From an uncultured Anaerolineae bacterium (GTDB lineage Bacteria; Chloroflexota; Anaerolineae; Anaerolineales; Villigracilaceae): a DNA stretch of 50,537 nt. Shown here in pieces: positions 26,630-50,452 of the stretch. Made by a program: the position numbers and the translations under genes. Positions within the stretch are counted from its first letter, which is position 1. Each line of letters starts with the position of its first letter. The notes under the pieces are model-generated. The model was not told the origin of the DNA and did no database searches. It was given only the letters and a program-made list of their open reading frames with translations. The stretch covers positions 1 to 50,537 of the forward strand of contig CAILYI010000113.1 of the NCBI GenBank assembly GCA_903838415.1, read 5' to 3'.

Positions 26630-27643
26630 TCAAATGAAGAGCGTTCTCCGCACTGCTGAGCTGGCGCGCAGGTCTGCGGCGTGAGTGACCCGGTTGCGGC
26701 CCTGCTCCTTCGAAGCGTACAGGGCCTGATCCGCCAAAAAGATGAAGGCGGTCTCGCTGTTAATCGCCGGTTCGAGAGTGGCAACGCCCAGGCTGACGGT
26801 AATGCCAAGCTCCGGCCAGGCCGCCGAGGCAATCGACAGGCGCAATCTTTCAGCGATCAGCATGGCAGTGGCCTTATCGGTGTTGGGTAAAACCACCGCA
26901 AACTCCTCGCCGCCATAACGGGCCGCCATATCAAACTCGCGTAAATTCTCCCGCAAAAACTCGGAGAGCATTTGCAAATATTTATCTCCCATTGGATGCC
27001 CATAGGTGTCATTGATGTTCTTGAAGTAATCCACATCAATCATCAACATGGAAAGCTGGGAGGGGACGCGATTGGTGAAGGCCATCTGAAAAACGAGGTA
27101 ATCCTGAAAGGCGCGACGATTCTTCAAGCCGGTCAGATGATCCAACGTGGACAGAGCTTCCAGCCGGGCGTTCGCTTCCAGCAATTCCGCCTGACGGGCC
27201 ATCAGCGAGGCTTGAGTTTCTTCCAACGAGATCACCGCCTGAATTTTGAGACGGGCTGCGTTTTCGGCATCTTTTCGGGCGCGCAAAATCTCGTCTTCAT
27301 AAAGGGAACGCCGCCGCATGGGCATCAGGATGCAATCATCCACGATCAGCCCCTGCCGTTCGCGCCGAATGGCGTTCACGAGCATGGGTTCTTCACGCCC
27401 ATTCTTGGAGACCAGCGAAAAAAAGAGTTCCTCCGCCCGGCCATGCGCGGAAAGAAGGGGTAGAAAAAAAGATTGGAAAAGCAGGCGGCTGGGAAGAGGC
27501 AGGATCGTCTCCAGCCGCTGTCCGCTCAGTTCGTCCAACTGGTACCCAAGCAGTTCCAGCAAAGTGGCATTAACCGCGACGATGACCCCTTCATTCGTCA
27601 GCGAAATGAAGCCACAAGGCGCGTTGTCCAACAGATTATCCAT
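26630..27643 (-). CDS. PAS-domain diguanylate cyclase (GGDEF), partner of the RsbQ-like hydrolase
   Basis: A 337-residue protein: N-terminal PAS domain (residues ~1-120, APCGFISLTNEGVIVAVN), a coiled-coil linker (~125-170) and a GGDEF domain (~175-335). The active site is GGEEF in RYGGEEFAVVLP, and an RxxD inhibitory site (REFD) lies five residues before it, so it should make cyclic-di-GMP under product inhibition. Its ATG is separated from the stop codon of the RsbQ-like gene by only two bases, indicating coupled translation. By analogy with RsbQ/RsbP, the hydrolase probably supplies the ligand or signal to this PAS domain; here the output is a cyclase instead of a phosphatase. Confidence 0.92.
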   Translation of the reverse strand: MDNLLDNAPCGFISLTNEGVIVAVNATLLELLGYQLDELSGQRLETILPLPSRLLFQSFFLPLLSAHGRAEELFFSLVSKNGREEPMLVNAIRRERQGLIVDDCILMPMRRRSLYEDEILRARKDAENAARLKIQAVISLEETQASLMARQAELLEANARLEALSTLDHLTGLKNRRAFQDYLVFQMAFTNRVPSQLSMLMIDVDYFKNINDTYGHPMGDKYLQMLSEFLRENLREFDMAARYGGEEFAVVLPNTDKATAMLIAERLRLSIASAAWPELGITVSLGVATLEPAINSETAFIFLADQALYASKEQGRNRVTHAADLRASSAVRRTLFI

Positions 27644-27645
27644 GC

Positions 27646-28470
27646 CTAGGATAAAACGCTTTGGGGCTGAGCAAGATACTGCTTGATGACTTGAATCGTC
27701 TCATCCGGAAAGCTCAAATGCGGAAAATGCCCGGTAGCCTTCATCCATGCCACCGTGCTGCCGGTCAACTGCCACTGCAGATATTTGGCGATATGAAGCG
27801 GCACAAAAGCATCGTCGGCGGGCTGCATGATCAGCGCCGGAACGCTAACTCCGGGCAGCGCTGCGCGCACATCCGAAAGGAAGGTAATCTCGGCAAATTG
27901 TTTCATAATGTAGTGATCGGTGGCGTTGAAGCTGGCCTCCAGTTCGAGCGCCAGCTCGGGCCGGTCGGGGTTTTTCATGGCGACAGGCGCGACGTAGTTC
28001 GCCCAGCCCAGGTAGTTCTTATCCATCATGCCCAACAGACCTTCCAGGTCGGCCCGATCAAACCCGCCCTGATAAGTGGGAAGCTCATTCATGTAACAGG
28101 GGGAGGCGCCCAACAGAATCAGCCTGCTAAAAAGCCCCGGAGCCTGGATGGAGGCCAGCAGGCCGATCATGCTGCTGACGGAATGCCCGACAAAAACCAC
28201 ATCTTTCAAATCCAGCGCCTGGCAAATTTCGAGCACATCCTGGGCGTAGCCAGACAGGCTGCTGTAGCGCTGGGGGTCGTATGCCTTGCGATCAGATTTA
28301 CCGGAGCCCACATAATCAAACAGGATGACGCGATAATCTTCCTCGAAGGCCGGCGCCACAAAACGCCAGAAGTTCTGGTCGCACCCGAAACCATGTCCGA
28401 ACAGCATGGGCTGGGTACCCTTGCCAGAGATTTGCACGTTATTCCGATTGATAATCGTATCTTGAGACAT
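27646..28470 (-). CDS. RsbQ-like alpha/beta hydrolase (D14/KAI2-related signalling hydrolase)
   Basis: A 274-residue alpha/beta hydrolase of the RsbQ type, the group that also includes plant strigolactone and karrikin receptors. The catalytic triad is seen: Ser in VGHSVSSM, Asp in QPADDAFVP, His in TGHFPHLSFP. The N-terminal NVQISGKG followed by MLFGHGFGCDQNFW is typical of RsbQ. ATG 28470 (MSQDTIINR) is chosen, with GAGGAG upstream, over a start five codons earlier. It is the first gene of a two-gene unit with a PAS-GGDEF protein, two bases apart. In Bacillus subtilis RsbQ works with the PAS domain of RsbP in energy stress; a comparable sensing role is inferred here. Confidence 0.9.
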   Translation of the reverse strand: MSQDTIINRNNVQISGKGTQPMLFGHGFGCDQNFWRFVAPAFEEDYRVILFDYVGSGKSDRKAYDPQRYSSLSGYAQDVLEICQALDLKDVVFVGHSVSSMIGLLASIQAPGLFSRLILLGASPCYMNELPTYQGGFDRADLEGLLGMMDKNYLGWANYVAPVAMKNPDRPELALELEASFNATDHYIMKQFAEITFLSDVRAALPGVSVPALIMQPADDAFVPLHIAKYLQWQLTGSTVAWMKATGHFPHLSFPDETIQVIKQYLAQPQSVLS

Positions 28471-28602
28471 TTCACTGCTCCTCATACAAAAATGAACATC
28501 CGTGTTTGGGCAAGGCGTGGCTTACATACAAAATTTCACGAAGTATACCCAAGTTTTGCCGAAAATCCTATTTTTCTGTAAATATTGAAATGGAATTTAC
28601 AC

Positions 28603-28630
28603 TTGTTTTTTTGCGGCTTTCTCATATACT
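28603..28630 (+). promoter_or_regulatory. Possible promoter for the tandem RNA-like units
   Basis: TTGTTT (28603-28608), 16-base spacer, TATACT (28625-28630). Transcription would start near 28637, about 80 bases before the first repeated unit. Confidence 0.45.
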
Positions 28631-28714
28631 GTATGTATCATTTCCTGGGCGTGATAATTTTGCTTTCTTGGAAAGATACAACAGGTTCAAATACAGCCAT
28701 AGCAGTGGAAATGA

Positions 28715-28831
28715 AAGGAAGCGTTGATCCAGGGATATTCTGGTCGCTCCACATTCCAGGTCAATTGACCGGAAGATGGCGTCCCTGGGGAGCAAGTGGC
28801 GAAACCGATCCCAGTAGAGGTCGGTTTTTTT
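28715..28831 (+). ncRNA. Putative structured RNA unit 1 (tandem copy) ending in a terminator
   Basis: A ~117-base non-coding unit that recurs almost identically 156 bases downstream. The most conserved block is about 28759-28807, including the self-complementary GGTCAATTGACC and GGGGAGCAAGTGGCGAAACC. A 7-bp long-range stem (CCAGGGA 28729-28735 with TCCCTGG 28782-28788) encloses most of the variable part, and GCTCC (28746-28750) can pair with GGAGC (28789-28793). The unit ends in an intrinsic terminator at 28804-28831. It resembles a riboswitch/attenuator or a small RNA gene, but I could not match it to any family I know. Confidence 0.5.
28804..28831 (+). terminator. Intrinsic terminator of RNA unit 1
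   Basis: A 7-bp stem (28804-28810 with 28819-28825, one G-U), an 8-base loop and seven T from 28825 to 28831. Confidence 0.75.
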
Positions 28832-28870
28832 GTTTAATGGCGCCAGGTCGTTTGCAAGCAAGAAGAATAG

Positions 28871-28986
28871 AAGGAAGCGTTGATCCAGGGATTTTTCTGG
28901 TCGCTCCTCTTCCCGGTCAATTGACCGGAAGATGGCGTCCCTGGGGAGCAAGTGGCGAAACCGGTCCCGTTCAGGGCCGGTTTTTT
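28871..28986 (+). ncRNA. Putative structured RNA unit 2 (tandem copy) ending in a terminator
   Basis: Second copy of the unit at 28715-28831. The blocks AAGGAAGCGTTGATCCAGGG and the core from GGTCAATTGACC to GGCGAAACCG are identical, while the spacers differ in sequence and length (seven instead of eight bases between GCTCC and GGTC; one extra T before CTGG). The terminator stem carries a compensatory change (A-U in unit 1, G-C in unit 2), which argues for selection on RNA structure. The 40 bases between the units share no similarity with the region before unit 1, so the unit boundaries are well marked. Confidence 0.5.
28958..28986 (+). terminator. Intrinsic terminator of RNA unit 2
   Basis: A 7-bp G/C-rich stem (28961-28967 with 28974-28980, one G-U), a 6-base loop, then six T (28981-28986) that can extend the stem with the A-run 28958-28960. 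Confidence 0.8.
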
Positions 28987-29028
28987 GTTGTAAGGCGTTA
29001 AAATATCGAATCGGACGAGGATATTAAC

Positions 29029-29253
29029 ATGTCATTCATTTTTTCTACAAATAGGCATATACTGATTAATAGTGAGAGTTTATTAAAAACCAACCAGCCT
29101 AATCAGGCCGATCAGGATTCGAGGGCGGTTGCATTGGTTTTCATGATAGAGCGGGTTGACAGGTGTCGAATTTTCTTATCGGTCGTGTTTAATGCTATTC
29201 AGGGTGAGTTAGTCAAAGCTGCGACTCTTTTTCGTATTCCTTTCGTTATGTAG
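29029..29253 (+). CDS. Possible small protein (74 residues) upstream of the sigma factor
   Basis: A short open frame between the RNA units and the sigma gene. The only support is a GAGG ribosome-binding site eight bases before ATG 29029. The product (MSFIFSTNRHILINSES...) shows no domain, signal peptide or convincing membrane helix, and its codon use looks more A/T-rich than its neighbours. A TTGACA at 29156-29161 inside the frame could instead be the -35 box of the sigma gene, although no good -10 is seen at the right distance. It may be spurious. Confidence 0.25.
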   Translation: MSFIFSTNRHILINSESLLKTNQPNQADQDSRAVALVFMIERVDRCRIFLSVVFNAIQGELVKAATLFRIPFVM

Positions 29254-29269
29254 TGTAGGTAGGTTGAAA

Positions 29270-29821
29270 ATGCAAGATACAAATTCGCGCCTGGTGGCGC
29301 CAAATCCTGACTTGATTCAACGTGCGCAACAGGGCGACAGAGAATCAATCAGTTGGCTGTTCAATCGCTTTCAGCCAAGTATCTTTCGATATTTGTATTA
29401 CAAAACCGGTCACCGCGAGACCGCAGAAGATTTAACTTCAGATGTTTTTGTGCGGATGCTGCGTTTTTTACCTGCCTACCAAACTCAGTCAGCCTCATTT
29501 CAAAGTTGGCTGTTCCGGATCGCCCACAATCTGGCGGTGGATTACTTCCGAAAATCTGGTTTCAGCACTGAATTGACCGATGACATACCCAACTCGGATC
29601 TTTTGCCGGAAGCAGCCGTTGAACAAAGTCTCTCGCACGAAGAATTACGCCAGGCCCTGTCCAAACTGGGCGGCGAGCAAACCGATGTGATCATTTTGCG
29701 TTTTGTTTTAGGGCTGCCGATCGCCCAGGTGGCCCAGGTCATTGGCAAAAGCGAAGATGCGATTAAAGGTTTACAACGCAGATCGTTACTGAACCTCCGC
29801 GAAGCACTGCACAAACGATGA
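29270..29821 (+). CDS. ECF-type RNA polymerase sigma factor
   Basis: A 183-residue sigma-70-family protein of the extracytoplasmic-function group. Region 2 is at residues ~22-90 (LFNRFQPSIFRYLYYKTGHR, then AEDLTSDVFVRML, and FRIAHNLAVDYFRK) and region 4 at ~120-180 (LSKLGGEQTDVIILRFVLGL, QVAQVIGKSEDAIKGLQRR). ATG 29270 is used; a TTG two codons earlier is also in frame. The FecR-like gene starts 32 bases downstream, the typical sigma/anti-sigma arrangement, and Tad-type pilus genes follow. The sigma factor may therefore control surface or pilus genes (inference). Confidence 0.92.
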   Translation: MQDTNSRLVAPNPDLIQRAQQGDRESISWLFNRFQPSIFRYLYYKTGHRETAEDLTSDVFVRMLRFLPAYQTQSASFQSWLFRIAHNLAVDYFRKSGFSTELTDDIPNSDLLPEAAVEQSLSHEELRQALSKLGGEQTDVIILRFVLGLPIAQVAQVIGKSEDAIKGLQRRSLLNLREALHKR

Positions 29822-29853: not shown

Positions 29854-31926
29854 ATGATGAATGACCAAGAACTGGACAACCTGTTCGAAAAAAGCCTGCA
29901 AGTCCTTGAAAATGGGGGTGACTTACGGCTCGCCGAAGCCGCATTTCCAGATAATACAGAAGAACTCATTTCTCTAATTCAACTGGCAACTGCACTGCAA
30001 GAGATTGCCCACCCCGAACCATCGGTCACTGCAACCAGGGCCACCCAGGCGCGCCTGAGTGCTCTGGCCGATGAACTCGCTCCCCACAAAATATCCCGCC
30101 CGGCTTATCGCTGGGCATGGTCATTTAGAAGTCCCATTTTTGCTGCGGCATTATTGCTTACCATATTTTTATTGGCCGGGGTCAGTTTTTGGGGGTATGG
30201 CCCCATTCCTGCCCATGCGGCCGCCTTTGCGGATTTAAGCGGAATGGTGGAAGTTGCATCCGCCAATGTTGATGATTGGAAGCCTGCGACCATTGGAGAA
30301 ACTCTGCAATCGGGAGCCCGAATCCGAACGAGCGGAGATGGCACTGCCACCGTGGTCTTTTATGAAGGCACCCGCCTGACACTGGAAAATCAATCTGAAC
30401 TGACGCTGACACGTGTGGCGGGCAACTGGGGCAATGTGCTCCAGGTGGAGCTGGCACAAAAAGTGGGCAGCGCGCGTTATAACGTGGTGCCTTTGCGCGG
30501 CAGTTCGAGTCACTTTGCGGTGAGTACACCGGCCGGGTTGGCCAGCGTCCACGGCACCAACTTTGTTGTCACCGTCAATCAGCAAGGGCAAACCCTGGTT
30601 TCGGTCGACGCCGGTGAAGTGGTGGTCGCCAATGCCAATACACAGGTCTCGGTTTTACCCGGAAAAACCACCATCTCCGAGCCAAACAGCGCTCCACAGG
30701 CCCCCGCGTTTCGGTTCGCCACAAATAACACGCTGACCAGCATGGACGGCAATACCTGGAAGCTGTACAACCTGTCCGTTCAGATCAACGAAAAGACTCT
30801 GCTCAGCACCACCCCCAAGGTCGGGCAAACCCTCTTTATAGCGGGCCGTGTCCTGGGAAACAATCAATATGTTGCTGATGTAATCATGCCCGGCGATCAA
30901 TTAGGGCCAAGGCTGGAATTTGCCGGGATCGCGCAGAAGGTCGATGCGGCAAATTGGATGGTGAACGGCGTGCCGATGAGCGCCAGCGAAGCCACAACCC
31001 TCAACAAGGATATTCAGCATGGCGATCGCGTCTTGGCGAAATTTACCTTACAGACCAAAGAGCGCTGGCAGGCTGCAAAAATTGTCGATTTGGAAATTGA
31101 GAAGGAAGCGCGCTCAGGCTGCACCGGGGCAGCTCCGCAGCCCAAAGGACAAGATCTGGCTGAAAAATATGGCTCATCCTACTCTGAGATCATGGATTGG
31201 TTCTGCCAGGGTTTTGGCTTCGGTGAAATTGATCATGCTTACCAATTGAACCTTGACACAGCGGCACCTGTAGCGGATATTTTTGCCTTGCGCCGCCAGG
31301 AAACAGGCTGGGGAAATATTCTGCGCAACTTGCAGGCTTCGCCAGCGTCCTCCACCAGCACGGATGCAACCGTCCCCGCATCTGTGACACCAGTTGTGGC
31401 GATTTTCGCCTCGCCTTCAGAATTCGAAAGCTCCGGATCGAACTGCACTGGCACTGGCTCACAGCCCGAAGCACAGACTTTGGCAGATCACTACGCGGTG
31501 GAATACGATGAAATTATGGGCTGGTTTTGCCAGGGTTTCGGTTTTGGCGAAATTAAGCAAGCCTATGATATGAGCCTCGGTTCCGACAATACAGTGGACG
31601 AGTTGTTTGCGATGAAAAAGTCGGGCATCGGTTGGGGCGAGATCAAGAAACTGGCTGACGAACAGAAAGCGAAAAACATCAATAACAATAACAGCAACGC
31701 TGGCAACAACGCTGGCAACAACGGTAACAACAATAGCAACAGCAATAACAACAGCAATAACAACAGCAATAACAACAGCAATAACAATAACAACACTGCC
31801 AAGGATAACAAAGATAACAAGGACAGCAAAGATAACAGTGGTAATGCTGGGAACAATGGCAATGCAGATAACAACGGGAATACTGACAATAACGGTAATA
31901 CCGACAATAACGGCAAAAAGAAATAG
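29854..31926 (+). CDS. FecR-like membrane protein with duplicated CxG...WFCQGFGFGEI module and Asn-rich tail; likely anti-sigma partner
   Basis: A 690-residue protein. Residues 1-90 form a cytoplasmic helical region suited to anti-sigma function, followed by one membrane helix (~94-115). A FecR domain lies outside (~127-280; GARIRTSGDGTATVVF, STPAGLASVHGTNF), then a beta-rich DUF5666-like region (~285-415). Two ~45-residue repeats start near residues 421 and 530, each with one Cys at the start and WFCQGFGFGEI near the end. The last ~80 residues are almost only Asn, Ser, Gly, Lys and Asp. The module repeat and tail are unfamiliar to me. It follows the sigma gene and precedes Tad-type genes, suggesting a transmembrane signal relay or a surface-structure role. 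Confidence 0.85.
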   Translation: MMNDQELDNLFEKSLQVLENGGDLRLAEAAFPDNTEELISLIQLATALQEIAHPEPSVTATRATQARLSALADELAPHKISRPAYRWAWSFRSPIFAAALLLTIFLLAGVSFWGYGPIPAHAAAFADLSGMVEVASANVDDWKPATIGETLQSGARIRTSGDGTATVVFYEGTRLTLENQSELTLTRVAGNWGNVLQVELAQKVGSARYNVVPLRGSSSHFAVSTPAGLASVHGTNFVVTVNQQGQTLVSVDAGEVVVANANTQVSVLPGKTTISEPNSAPQAPAFRFATNNTLTSMDGNTWKLYNLSVQINEKTLLSTTPKVGQTLFIAGRVLGNNQYVADVIMPGDQLGPRLEFAGIAQKVDAANWMVNGVPMSASEATTLNKDIQHGDRVLAKFTLQTKERWQAAKIVDLEIEKEARSGCTGAAPQPKGQDLAEKYGSSYSEIMDWFCQGFGFGEIDHAYQLNLDTAAPVADIFALRRQETGWGNILRNLQASPASSTSTDATVPASVTPVVAIFASPSEFESSGSNCTGTGSQPEAQTLADHYAVEYDEIMGWFCQGFGFGEIKQAYDMSLGSDNTVDELFAMKKSGIGWGEIKKLADEQKAKNINNNNSNAGNNAGNNGNNNSNSNNNSNNNSNNNSNNNNNTAKDNKDNKDSKDNSGNAGNNGNADNNGNTDNNGNTDNNGKKK
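31678..31916 (+). repeat. Low-complexity AAC/AAT/AGC triplet repeat encoding the Asn-rich tail
   Basis: Tandem triplets such as AACAACAGCAAT, in frame, encode runs of Asn with Ser, then Asp/Lys- and Gly/Asn-rich variants (DNKDNKD, NNGNTDNNGNT). It is prone to slippage, so its length may vary between strains. Confidence 0.85.
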
Positions 31927-31968
31927 TTGACCGGCGAAACGAAAAGCTACTTTTTATTGGTTGCGCAA

Positions 31969-33210
31969 ATGGTAAATATTTTTACTTGGTTTCGTTCAAG
32001 AACAAAAAAGTTGCGAGATGTTATGCAAAGAAAAAAACTTGGAATCGCCCAATCTGCTGTTGAGTTTGCCCTGGTGCTGCCTCTGCTGCTATTTGTGGTT
32101 GTTGGCACGCTTGAAATGGGGCGGCTGGTGTTTATTTATGTTGGCGTGATTAACGCCGCGCGCGAAGCGGCCCGCTACGGAGCGGCTTCTGGCAGCCTGG
32201 GAAGTGGTACCGACTTTCAATACTCCGACTGCCAGGGCATTAAAGATGCAGCGCGCAGGGTAAGCTTTTTGGTACCCCTGTCCGATGACAATATTTCCAT
32301 TCGCTATGACCAGGGACCTGGCTCGCCGCCGACAGGTGAATGTTCAGTCGGCACGGTGCCCGCGGTCGGGTACGTTCGCACCGGAACGCGCATTTTAATC
32401 AACGTGGATATCCCTTTCGCGCCCATGCTGGGGATCATACCGCTTACCTTGCCGAATGTGGCCTCCAATACTGCGCGCACCCTCCTGGCAAGTGTCGATA
32501 TCAGCGGCAGCGCGATGCCCCCACCCACCATCAATTATTCCGGTGGAGGAACGGTGACACCCACCCGAACCAAAACCGCCACTCCAACCATCACGCCGAC
32601 TTTCACAATTACACCCAGCCCCACGCAAACCGGCACGGCTACCTTCACACCCACCGCTACGGCAACTCCGCTCTATACGGCGACGGCGAGTCGAACACCA
32701 ACTGCCAGCTTCACGCCCACCGACACCTTCACGCCCTCTCCGACCGCGACGGTGACCAGTACAGCCTCCGCAACACCGACCGGCACCGCCACACAAATAC
32801 CATCCTGCGCCAGTCTCTCAGTCAGCACGCCGATTATCCAGGTGGATAATTCATCTGCGCATACCTGGACGATAACCCTGAAGAATAGCGGCAGTGTTCC
32901 AATGCGGATGGAAAAAGTTCAGGTTCTTTGGTTTCAGAAGGGATCAACATTCGCCAATTTGTATGGGATCAGCGCGAACGGTTCCACCCCATCCTTTAAT
33001 GTTATCGGGCTTAATAACGCGAGTGGAAGCTACACCTATACCTTCCCTTCATCGCCCGAGTATTACATCCCTGCCAAAGCCGCCCAGGATGGCACGGTCA
33101 CGCTTCAAATTACCTTCACCGGCAGCGGCAACAATATATTGCCCAATTTATCCAACAGTGAATTCATAAATGTAACGGCGTCAAGTTGTTCAAAAGCAGC
33201 GCCAGGTTAA
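31969..33210 (+). CDS. TadE-type pseudopilin with Thr/Pro linker and C-terminal beta-domain
   Basis: About 413 residues. The N-terminus is TadE-like: AQSAVEFALVLPLLLFVVVG with the conserved Glu, then NAAREAARYGA. A beta-rich domain (to ~residue 180) is followed by a ~80-residue linker of TPT/TAT repeats (PTPTRTKTATPT type) and a C-terminal domain (~280-410) that looks like a cell-surface beta-sandwich (TWTITLKNSGSVPMRMEKVQ). This layout suggests a surface-exposed subunit of a Tad/Flp pilus or related envelope structure. The frame is open back to 31927, directly at the FecR stop; ATG 31969 and ATG 32023 are both plausible and neither has a strong ribosome-binding site. Confidence 0.8.
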   Translation: MVNIFTWFRSRTKKLRDVMQRKKLGIAQSAVEFALVLPLLLFVVVGTLEMGRLVFIYVGVINAAREAARYGAASGSLGSGTDFQYSDCQGIKDAARRVSFLVPLSDDNISIRYDQGPGSPPTGECSVGTVPAVGYVRTGTRILINVDIPFAPMLGIIPLTLPNVASNTARTLLASVDISGSAMPPPTINYSGGGTVTPTRTKTATPTITPTFTITPSPTQTGTATFTPTATATPLYTATASRTPTASFTPTDTFTPSPTATVTSTASATPTGTATQIPSCASLSVSTPIIQVDNSSAHTWTITLKNSGSVPMRMEKVQVLWFQKGSTFANLYGISANGSTPSFNVIGLNNASGSYTYTFPSSPEYYIPAKAAQDGTVTLQITFTGSGNNILPNLSNSEFINVTASSCSKAAPG

Positions 33211-33797: not shown

Positions 33798-35168
33798 ATG
33801 ATTAAGCGACCCCGGTCTGAACAAGGTCAGGCCATTGTGATGATTGTTTTTGTGATTGTTGGCTTATTCGCGCTGGTTGCGCTGGCCATGGACGGCGGAC
33901 AGGCTTTCTCAGATCGCCGCCAGGCCCAAAACGCGGCCGATGCCGCCGCGCTGGCTGCCGCGCTTTCCTACCAATTGGGAAACGGCAGCACCGCCCATGT
34001 GGAGGCCCGCGCGCTCGAAATCGCCGCTTCCAATGGCTACTTCAACAGCCTACCGCGCAGCAGCGTCACAATCGACCCGAATGGCACTGCCGTGGTGGGG
34101 GCTTGCCCGAACAATCAAAACGGCAGAGATTTTACAGTAACGATCGAATCCAACATTAATACCTGGTTTGCCTCCATCTTTGGCGTAACAATGATGCATA
34201 ACACCGTCACGTCCACCGCCCGCGGTTGTGAATTTTATTGGAAATCATTATTTGATGGCAATGCGATTGTGGCTACGGCCCCGGTGGGCACGAGCGGCTT
34301 TAATGCTGGGGGTAACGGTATTTGGAAGGTGGCTTGCACTGATGGAACTGTCAGCGGCGGTATTTTTTCAAACGGTGACGCTGATGGCAGCGGATCATCC
34401 ACTACGACTGCATCCAGCCTGACGGTCGTTGGCAGCGGCGGGGATACGTTTGCAGGCCAACCGATTGGGCAAATTCTAAAAGGAACGCCTTACGCGTTTC
34501 CGGGGGACATTATTACCAAAATGCCGCGCATTCCAGCCTGCGATGGCACCGCCTATCTTGATCCGCATGATGGCGCCTACCACCCCGAAGCCGGTAAAGA
34601 TGGCAGCGTCATCCCGGTGGCGCTCGACGGCGGTCAGACCTATACCAGCGGGCTGTATTGCGTCACAAAGGATAACGGCAACTGGAACAACGGTACGCTC
34701 TATGCACGCGACGCGACTTTCTACATCATGAAGGCAGGTTATGATCTCAAGTTCGCTGGCGGCGGCTCAGGCGGAGAAGGTTTCGATATCACCGCCACCC
34801 AGAACGGCGAGTATGCCGGGTATGCCATCATCCTGCCCTTGACCTGTCAGGGGGCAACCTCGCATTCCCCGGATATTATCTGTAATCTGACTAAGCTCGC
34901 GGCCGGTCAGCAAACCATTGCAACCTGCGATGGTTCTTCGGATACCCCAAGGTTGGATCTTCGCGGCAATGGCGCGACCGGCATCTTCGGAACTGTCATG
35001 GCGCCCACGGCCTGCCTGACGATGTTGGGCAACTCCTTAACTGAAAATCACGGCCAGTTGATCGGTTACGTCGTCGATGCAAGCGGTACCGCCGATGTCA
35101 ACGTCTGCTTCAAAGGCGATGAACACCCCAAGGAACCGGTTCCGCCCTCGGTGCAACTCCTGAGATAG
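33798..35168 (+). CDS. TadG-type (Tad_N/DUF2134-like) pilus-associated membrane protein
   Basis: A 456-residue protein with the TadG-like N-terminus EQGQAIVMIVFVIVGLFALV (residues 8-27), a single membrane helix, and the classic DGGQAFSDRRQAQNAADAAA motif directly after. The remaining ~390 residues are an extracellular Gly-rich region with several Cys residues. An AGGAGG site precedes ATG 33798. It completes the sigma/FecR/TadE/TadE/TadG run and is followed by a strong terminator. No Tad ATPase, secretin or prepilin peptidase gene is in the window, so the machine itself must be encoded elsewhere. Confidence 0.88.
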   Translation: MIKRPRSEQGQAIVMIVFVIVGLFALVALAMDGGQAFSDRRQAQNAADAAALAAALSYQLGNGSTAHVEARALEIAASNGYFNSLPRSSVTIDPNGTAVVGACPNNQNGRDFTVTIESNINTWFASIFGVTMMHNTVTSTARGCEFYWKSLFDGNAIVATAPVGTSGFNAGGNGIWKVACTDGTVSGGIFSNGDADGSGSSTTTASSLTVVGSGGDTFAGQPIGQILKGTPYAFPGDIITKMPRIPACDGTAYLDPHDGAYHPEAGKDGSVIPVALDGGQTYTSGLYCVTKDNGNWNNGTLYARDATFYIMKAGYDLKFAGGGSGGEGFDITATQNGEYAGYAIILPLTCQGATSHSPDIICNLTKLAAGQQTIATCDGSSDTPRLDLRGNGATGIFGTVMAPTACLTMLGNSLTENHGQLIGYVVDASGTADVNVCFKGDEHPKEPVPPSVQLLR

Positions 35169-49656: not shown

Positions 49657-50355
49657 TTAGGGCGTGACTGAATTGATTGAGAAGTCGTCAAGACAAAGGT
49701 TAGTGCTATCCCAGGTTCGAAGCCCCGTACCACCCGAAGTATATGTATTGTCTTGTCCGGTAAGCACAGCCTGCCCATCCACATAGCCGGTGAAGGTATT
49801 CCCAACGACTTTTATAGAAAGGTCATGCGGAGATCCGTACCAGTTGTTACCCGGGACTGATTTATAGACGATAGCCGGGTTGATCTCAGAGCCATTTATC
49901 CATTTGCGGATCACATAACCATTCAGGCCGGGATCATATTGGAAGGCATAACCATTAATCCCCGAACCGGTATTCGTGGCTCGGAAGAAAATCCCATAGC
50001 CATTCCCGGAGGTCAAAGCTGCACCTTTGACTTGAGCCGAATAGTCAGCGGCTGACAATTGAGTTTGGGAGCATTTATTCAACAAAGTACCGCCGCCTTG
50101 AATGCAGGCCCGACCATTGGTGGCTGCCCAGGGACCTATCACGCTTTGTGATCCACTCATATTATCGAAATTATCCTGGCAAAGGGAAGTAGAACCTGAA
50201 CAGGCAGTGGTGGTAAAAACGCCAGCGATGCGGCAATAAACATCCTTTACCGAAATCCCCATTAACTGTAATGTAAGCAAGGCGCCAATGGCAACGAGCA
50301 ATATCAAAAGGGCATACTCGACCATGCCCTGCCCGGATTGTTGTTTTGTTTTCAT
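49657..50355 (-). CDS. Flp-like pilin N-terminus fused to a concanavalin/LamG-like domain
   Basis: A 232-residue protein. The N-terminus KQQSGQGMVEYALLILLVAI is that of Flp/Tad-type pilins: a prepilin-type cleavage Gly, Glu at +5 and a hydrophobic helix. Instead of ending near residue 60 as Flp pilins do, it continues into a ~165-residue beta-rich domain with GYGIFFRATNT, YVIRKWINGSE, GNTFTGYVDGQ and LCLDDFSI, resembling lectin-like laminin-G or DUF1080 folds. ATG 50355 with GGAGGCC upstream is chosen. It may display a carbohydrate-binding head on a pilus or pseudopilus (inference). A transposase gene starts 97 bases upstream on the other strand and may have altered its promoter. Confidence 0.8.
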   Translation of the reverse strand: MKTKQQSGQGMVEYALLILLVAIGALLTLQLMGISVKDVYCRIAGVFTTTACSGSTSLCQDNFDNMSGSQSVIGPWAATNGRACIQGGGTLLNKCSQTQLSAADYSAQVKGAALTSGNGYGIFFRATNTGSGINGYAFQYDPGLNGYVIRKWINGSEINPAIVYKSVPGNNWYGSPHDLSIKVVGNTFTGYVDGQAVLTGQDNTYTSGGTGLRTWDSTNLCLDDFSINSVTP

Positions 50356-50452
50356 GTGGCCTCCAAAAGACATTCTGGCATTTCCCAGTCAGAGAACTGT
50401 CCATTCGCGGAAAAGGATTTTGAAATCGTGAATTCTTTGGTAAGCTCAAGGG

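Follow-up and report, generated by a model that had tools for sequence, protein, structure and literature searches.

Two similar units, each of about 117 nt and placed 156 nt apart, lie on the plus strand at 28715-28835 and 28871-28988 of the window (the whole stretch of 50,537 nucleotides that was analysed), ahead of a gene for an ECF-type sigma factor. The features of the locus are listed below. R1 in the list is a covariance model described later; it was built from these two units among others, and their R1 scores are high by construction.

26630..27643, minus strand: PAS-GGDEF protein, diguanylate cyclase-like, in the divergent operon (Pfam GGDEF, 2.1e-41)
28717..28811, plus strand: aptamer of unit 1, c-di-GMP-II type (R1, built from it, 94.6 bits; RF03169, 33.0 bits at 28709-28819; RF01786, 27.1 bits)
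28729-28736/28781-28788, plus strand: P2 arms of unit 1
28741, plus strand: U37 equivalent of unit 1
28742-28747, plus strand: pseudoknot 5′ strand of unit 1, GGUCGC
28799-28807, plus strand: 3′ ligand/pseudoknot strand of unit 1, GCGAAACCG
28801..28828, plus strand: intrinsic terminator of unit 1, 10-pair stem and T-run (terminator scan, MFE fold)
28873..28967, plus strand: aptamer of unit 2 (R1, 96.2 bits by construction; RF01786, 33.5 bits at 28864-28973; RF03169, 36.2 bits)
28885-28892/28937-28944, plus strand: P2 arms of unit 2
28899-28904, plus strand: pseudoknot 5′ strand of unit 2
28955-28963, plus strand: 3′ strand of unit 2, GCGAAACCG
28957..28984, plus strand: intrinsic terminator of unit 2, 11-pair stem and T-run, overlapping the aptamer 3′ strand (terminator scan, MFE fold)
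29029..29253, plus strand: 74-aa ORF that follows the second terminator and precedes the ECF gene; a GAGGA-like sequence stands ahead of its ATG
29264..29821, plus strand: ECF-type sigma factor gene, the first clear gene downstream (Pfam Sigma70_r2, 3.2e-17; Sigma70_r4, 5.6e-8)
29854..31926, plus strand: FecR-domain and DUF5666 protein (Pfam FecR, 2.3e-9; DUF5666, 2.6e-7)
31927..33210, plus strand: TadE-domain protein (Pfam TadE, 6e-13)

The two units are repeats in register. A repeat search gave three pairs of blocks at an offset of 156-157 (28754-28837/28910-28993, 87% identical; 28710-28739/28866-28895, 90%; 28738-28757/28895-28914, 85%), and the longest run common to both units without a mismatch is 49 nt, starting at 28759 and 28915. 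The entire 3′ ligand strand falls inside this run, and both units keep an intact pseudoknot 5′ strand. These values agree with the first-pass annotation, which had described two units of about 117 bp offset by 156 bp, sharing a core of about 48 bases and each closed by a hairpin and a T-run; terminator-like hairpins are indeed present at 28801-28828 and 28957-28984. The compensatory A-U to G-C change that it had noticed in the terminator stems can be read directly (ACCGAUC/GGUCGGU versus ACCGGUC/GGCCGGU). Its non-coding region of about 800 bp corresponds to 778 nt between the end of a divergent hydrolase gene (28485) and the start of the ECF gene (29264), and the 74-aa ORF inside this span could be a small gene. 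With 12 distinct copies in the genome, the repeat goes beyond chance. Folds of the minus strand reach the significance of those of the plus strand, since hairpins are symmetric. The plus strand is favoured because the T-runs and the genes of the homologues point that way.

The default Rfam scan (4227 families, gathering scores) gave no match in the 50,537 bases of the window. In a relaxed scan of 691 bases, unit 2 matched RF01786 (c-di-GMP-II; 33.5 bits, E 2.7e-5) and unit 1 matched RF03169 (c-di-GMP-II-GAG; 33.0 bits, E 1.8e-4); each of these matches spans its model from end to end. When the whole genome was searched, unit 2 scored 36.2 bits with RF03169 (E 5.2e-5) and unit 1 scored 27.1 bits with RF01786. 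The curated cut-offs of the two models, which belong to clan CL00127, are 53.5 bits (RF01786) and 40 bits (RF03169). With 27-36 bits, both units lie below every Rfam gathering score, and default annotation misses them because their scores are sub-threshold. The remaining matches of the relaxed scan (STnc320, mir-62, ylbH and isrO; E 1.1-9.8, all of them 30 bits or more short of their own cut-offs) were set aside as chance. By itself, the empty default scan would have pointed to an unknown class; the relaxed scan gave the c-di-GMP-II clan on both units. None of the copies in this genome reached the RF01786 cut-off. The RF03169 cut-off was passed by 4 of the 12 (40.8-43.5 bits), the window units not being among them; because of these four copies, the identity of the family does not depend on the weak scores in the window. 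Elsewhere, matches in 18 of 101 genomes of the order exceeded the RF03169 cut-off, and the RF01786 cut-off was passed by one homologue in the order (L045, 56.7 bits) and by four others in the phylum (58.5-64.5 bits). In 14 control genomes, the two Rfam models gave some match at E<=10 in 10 and 7 genomes, none above a cut-off, and RF03169 gave no match at E<=0.001. Judged by sequence, the window units are a tandem pair from the known c-di-GMP-II class and not from an unknown class. Thus, the clan matches on both units bear out the earlier reading as a tandem riboswitch or attenuator. They contradict the statement that the conserved core fits no known class, this class having been missing from the list considered; the oversight is understandable because the default Rfam search is empty for the window. 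An Rfam search had been proposed as the check on that statement: it places sister copies in a known family above the cut-off, and the window units themselves match the family at sub-threshold scores. The covariance-model scan that had also been proposed found homologues with covariation, as described below.

The assembly searched (5.67 Mb, 311 contigs, 99% complete, 8.6% contamination) contains 12 distinct copies, which were detected by DNA search and with both Rfam models and are arranged as three pairs, a triplet and three singles. The pairs lie in the window and on contigs C78 and C79, the triplet lies on C25, and the singles lie on C79, on C310 and at the start of C25. Copies at the ends of C83 and C116 are identical to the single at the start of C25, with an overlap of 113 identical nt, and were not counted as distinct. 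The three positions are as follows.

L025:20-112, minus strand: copy at the C25 contig start, with a transposase-like ORF nearby
G000:C83:8797-8889, minus strand: identical copy at a contig end
G000:C116:20837-20929, minus strand: identical copy at a contig end

This triple copy is probably a repeat that broke the assembly, with the sequence at two or more places. Beyond the copy on C83, a polysaccharide flippase/ligase-like cluster was seen by eye. Also by eye, an ACAAC-like stretch stands about 22 nt before GGAAGC in most copies of this genome (on C78, C79 and C25), and not in window unit 2 or the C310 copy.

The covariance model R1 was built from the 12 copies, covers 96 positions and leaves out the pseudoknot. 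The training copies match it by construction, and searches with it favour copies that have the core letters of the training set. In the alignment of the 12 copies (A1), P2a, P2b, the pseudoknot and P3 are paired in 91.3% of cells, compared with 33-51% for slid structures; the pseudoknot is invariant among these copies. Within the order, R1 has matches in 110 of the 301 genomes, representing 63 of 112 genera; in a draw of 400 genomes from the phylum, which also contained order members, it has matches in 52. From the relatives, 98 loci (L056-L153) were used, which are not a random sample: most were taken from the R1 matches listed, and 11 (L136-L146) were taken via RF03169 matches. R1 found 116 copies (115 distinct) in these loci. 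In their alignment (A3), which was fitted to the nested helices of R1 and favours these, 92.8% of 2742 cells are paired versus 32-43% for slid structures. Double-sided changes occur in 636 cells, compared with a shuffled mean of 184, and are seen in 21 of the 26 pairs. None of 500 shuffles reached the observed value on any of five measures. Helices 1-3 (P2 with its internal loop, and the GC pairs of P2a) are paired in 92.8, 96.7 and 94.4% of cells, with compensatory changes. The pseudoknot, in contrast, is outside R1. It is paired in 99.9% of cells, shows two kinds of double-sided swap and has two unpaired A in its 3′ strand. The common form is GGUCGC/GCGAAACC, and the compensatory forms are GGUCAC/GUGAAACC and GGGCGC/GCGCAACC.

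According to a table in PMC7288161, the contacts to c-di-GMP in 3Q3Z are A13, A14, U37, G39, U60, A61, C68, A69, A70, C71, C72, G73 and A74. We made the position equivalence to 3Q3Z here by aligning the cores, for 127 copies (one of the 116 rows of A3 was left out). The contact letter is kept at U37 in 121 copies, A61 in 123, A69 in 126, A70 in 127 and G73 in 125. Across the 127 copies, position 60 varies (C, U, A or G), position 68 is A in 125 and C in 2, and position 74 is mostly G. Both window units have U37, G39, A61, A69, A70, C71, C72 and G73; both have A at 60 and at 68, and position 74 is A in unit 1 and G in unit 2. In both, P2a ends in an A.A mismatch. A68 pairs with U40, in place of the canonical G40-C68. 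The copies share with RF01786 (3Q3Z) a P2 with internal GC pairs, a pseudoknot that joins the P2 loop to the 3′ strand, and the core A-A-C-C-G. They differ from it in that U40-A68 and G42-C66 replace G40-C68 and A42-U66, which is a compensatory change, in the addition of P3 in most order members examined, and in a short P1. RF03169 has the same U40-A68 and G42-C66 in its pseudoknot. In contrast, its consensus has C37 and G69 (CGAGACC), and nearly all Anaerolineales copies lack these letters, having mostly U37, and A69, that is GAA and not GAG at 67-69. The 11 loci that were picked through RF03169 matches likewise carry A69. Because C37 and G69 of RF03169 are absent, the form is placed nearer the canonical class, and we call it "GAA"; the Rfam variant names (GAG) presumably denote letters 67-69. 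The names of the c-di-GMP-II variants reportedly come from two papers of 2017. In the openly licensed PMC literature, we found no description of these riboswitches in Anaerolineae or Chloroflexota, and those two papers may mention them.

P3 is an extra covarying hairpin that most copies have between the pseudoknot 5′ strand and the P2 3′ arm. In the Rfam models it is an insertion outside their structure. In A3, 83.3% of its cells are paired and all nine pairs vary on both sides; its pairs also change in a compensatory fashion among the copies of this genome. In 9 of 115 copies, 30 nt or fewer lie between the pseudoknot strands, which we took as too short for P3. P1 has two contiguous pairs in each window unit. 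In the family, its mean length is 3.6 contiguous bp versus 2.75 (sd 0.10) when 3′ flanks are swapped (126 of 128 copies, 200 shuffles). The lineage-specific P3 and the sub-threshold scores are modest novelties. A larger claim would be that the Anaerolineales form, with its GAA core, P3 and terminator in the ligand strand, is a distinct c-di-GMP-II subclass in which P3 is functional and tandem copies whose letters differ at position 60 and in P1 act as graded sensors in series. We consider this improbable. If it were true, P3 might tune the affinity or the co-transcriptional timing, or contribute to a different ligand preference. Some Anaerolineales copies are missed or assigned to the wrong subtype by the curated c-di-GMP-II cut-offs, and a lineage-specific covariance model with P3 would improve the annotation.

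The fold could also sense another cyclic dinucleotide, for example c-AMP-GMP. Among class I riboswitches, such a change of ligand to another cyclic dinucleotide has occurred. Here, pair 40-68 is U-A instead of G-C, and 68 is among the contacts given in PMC7288161; furthermore, position 60 varies and the best Rfam model for many relatives is a named variant, c-di-GMP-II-GAG. However, the change at 40-68 is compensatory, 121 of the 127 copies have the canonical U37 and 126 the canonical A69, and the C37 and G69 of RF03169 are nearly always absent. Moreover, GAA-core copies elsewhere in the phylum (L280, L287 and L288) exceed the RF01786 cut-off, and the downstream genes together with 30 GGDEF matches in the genome fit c-di-GMP. 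We regard a different ligand as unlikely, and infer that the ligand is c-di-GMP.

The position of the terminators suggests how such a c-di-GMP riboswitch may work. In unit 2 the terminator stem begins at G67 (28957) and includes A68-G73, and unit 1 is alike. A terminator with a 5′ arm that begins inside the ligand strand/core, at least 7 net pairs and a T-run was found in 101 of 125 scored copies (3 of 128 were unscored), compared with 7.3% for dinucleotide-shuffled downstream sequence; the 24 copies that failed include some with longer stems that the script did not score (for example the C79 single). Because the terminator 5′ arm is the aptamer 3′ strand, the ligand-bound pseudoknot and the terminator are mutually exclusive, and therefore ligand-induced antitermination (an ON switch) is predicted from the anatomy. 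Without the ligand, GCGAAACCG(A/G)UCC would pair with the downstream GG(U/C)CGGUUUU and transcription would stop. When c-di-GMP is bound, the GCGAAACCG strand would be held in the pseudoknot with GGUCGC, with A69 and A70 in the binding pocket. The terminator would be blocked by this ligand-held strand, and read-through would turn the operon ON when c-di-GMP is abundant. With two gates in series for the polymerase, the leak would be lower and the response steeper. A sigma-70 scan of 28400-29400 gave no sigma-70-like promoter on the plus strand; its two hits, which are at the level of chance, lie on the minus strand. From the last aptamer to the start of the ECF gene there are 296 nt, in which a separate promoter may lie.

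The probable target of the pair in the window is the ECF operon. The 74-aa ORF could be the true first gene of the transcript, and the FecR/DUF5666 gene is probably co-transcribed with the ECF sigma gene. The operon may serve a Tad-type surface structure. The PAS-GGDEF protein of the divergent operon is a possible local source of the ligand. At the other arrays in this genome, the C310 copy is followed by a small ORF and two GGDEF proteins, of which the nearer one carries MASE3. The C25 triplet precedes a sugar-transferase/GGDEF protein at the head of an apparent polysaccharide operon (by eye), and the C79 single precedes a histidine kinase (sensor kinase). The C79 pair is followed by a small ORF and, after it, a frame that stays open for 829 codons or more and begins like a signal peptide. 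The C78 pair points off the contig end. Further Tad/Flp pilus-like proteins were seen by eye in the window, TadG-like and with a pilin-like N-terminus (33798-35168, plus strand; 49657-50373, minus strand).

Across the family, the copies stand in cis before mostly secreted-type genes. Gene models were simple ORF calls, and an antisense ORF was taken as the upstream gene in the window. Of 117 arrays, 108 have a downstream gene in the fetched stretch, and 97 have a same-strand first gene within 900 nt. The first downstream gene is on the same strand in 101 of the 108, whereas the nearest upstream gene is on the same strand in 67 of 113. A hydrophobic N-terminus, a rough proxy for secretion and not a signal-peptide predictor, is present in 77 of 97 downstream first genes versus 32 of 113 upstream genes (Fisher p 7e-14); the ECF sigma gene of the window is among the 20 first genes that lack it. 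The 97 first proteins have 61 Pfam families, among them PKD, MBG_2, cadherin, RTX, subtilase, Wzz, sugar transferase, TadE, response regulator and histidine kinase (1-3 each), and the commonest among the matches listed is Cu-oxidase_3 (4 proteins). Two AA_kinase/PUA (amino-acid-kinase/PUA) proteins are out of line with the envelope theme. Because the downstream Pfam families are diverse, no single target family can be named. The upstream Pfam scan covered 97 of the 113 genes; the 16 omitted were mostly genes between two copies or doubtful ORFs. A small conserved protein with a motif like DEFxGEMRKxGCSExTAxKxW is the first ORF after three arrays in two genomes (L022:4197-4466, L026:4106-4408 and L071:2601-2921).

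These gene positions bear on the idea that the units are small RNA genes that were duplicated, have a promoter and a terminator each, and act in trans. The units are short and separable, each has a full terminator, and the ACAAC-like stretch is common to the upstream spacers of several copies in the genome. However, the scan of 28400-29400 gave no plus-strand sigma-70-like promoter, the first downstream gene is so often on the same strand, the arrays of the relatives are single in 105 of 110 cases, and the strand that is conserved forms the ligand pocket in a known riboswitch class. We judge this explanation very unlikely. Equally unlikely are unregulated, decayed copies kept after duplication as passive tandem terminators: P1 is weak in the window units and both score below the cut-offs, but their 49-nt identical run covers the 3′ ligand strand completely, both retain an intact pseudoknot 5′ strand, and P3 varies in a compensatory fashion among the copies of the genome. 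We hold it very probable that two complete riboswitches of the c-di-GMP-II class, both of ON type and with a terminator apiece, form a doublet at this locus and lead the ECF sigma/FecR/TadE operon of a bacterium with Anaerolineales-type Chloroflexota as its relatives.

Tandem c-di-GMP-II riboswitches have precedents. PMC9481103 reports 59 doublets and 9 triplets, mostly in Paraclostridium and relatives and mostly before a surface-anchor gene. Like these, the present units are serial c-di-GMP-II riboswitches; unlike those, they belong to another phylum, and three doublets and one triplet occur in one genome. The multiples here stand before the ECF operon, a sugar-transferase operon, and a small ORF with a secreted-type protein, and one target is past a contig end. 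Of the 117 arrays, 9 hold more than one copy; 4 are among the 7 arrays of this genome and 5 among the 110 of the relatives. For a triple-tandem c-di-GMP-I riboswitch of Bacillus thuringiensis, control is described in PMC4759541 as more stringent and digital; this riboswitch likewise places serial gates under one ligand, in a different aptamer class. The claim of an orphan riboswitch is replaced by a concrete, testable regulon in a large and mostly uncultured bacterial order. In this regulon, genes of secreted type and some genes for exopolysaccharide and signalling are preceded by c-di-GMP-II-type riboswitches, whose apparent ON mechanism can be read from the sequence.

A pattern scan of named genomes gave at least 117 stretches, at least 112 of which have titles of Chloroflexota or Anaerolineae type. 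An exact 21-nt pattern had no match in viral contigs. Matches occur in the cultured species Anaerolinea thermolimosa, Longilinea arvoryzae, Bellilinea caldifistulae and Thermanaerothrix daxensis. Five of the matches listed have other titles, and all five are from MAGs: Acidimicrobiales (twice, from one MAG), Acidimicrobiaceae, Patescibacteria and Bacteroidetes (L207, L263, L244, L237 and L267). The two of these that were scanned, L207 and L237, are above the RF03169 cut-off (51.4 and 45.2 bits). Transfer, a wider distribution or mis-binned contigs are possible explanations of c-di-GMP-II-type copies in these MAGs. The Acidimicrobiales copy stands, by eye, upstream of a subtilase-like gene.
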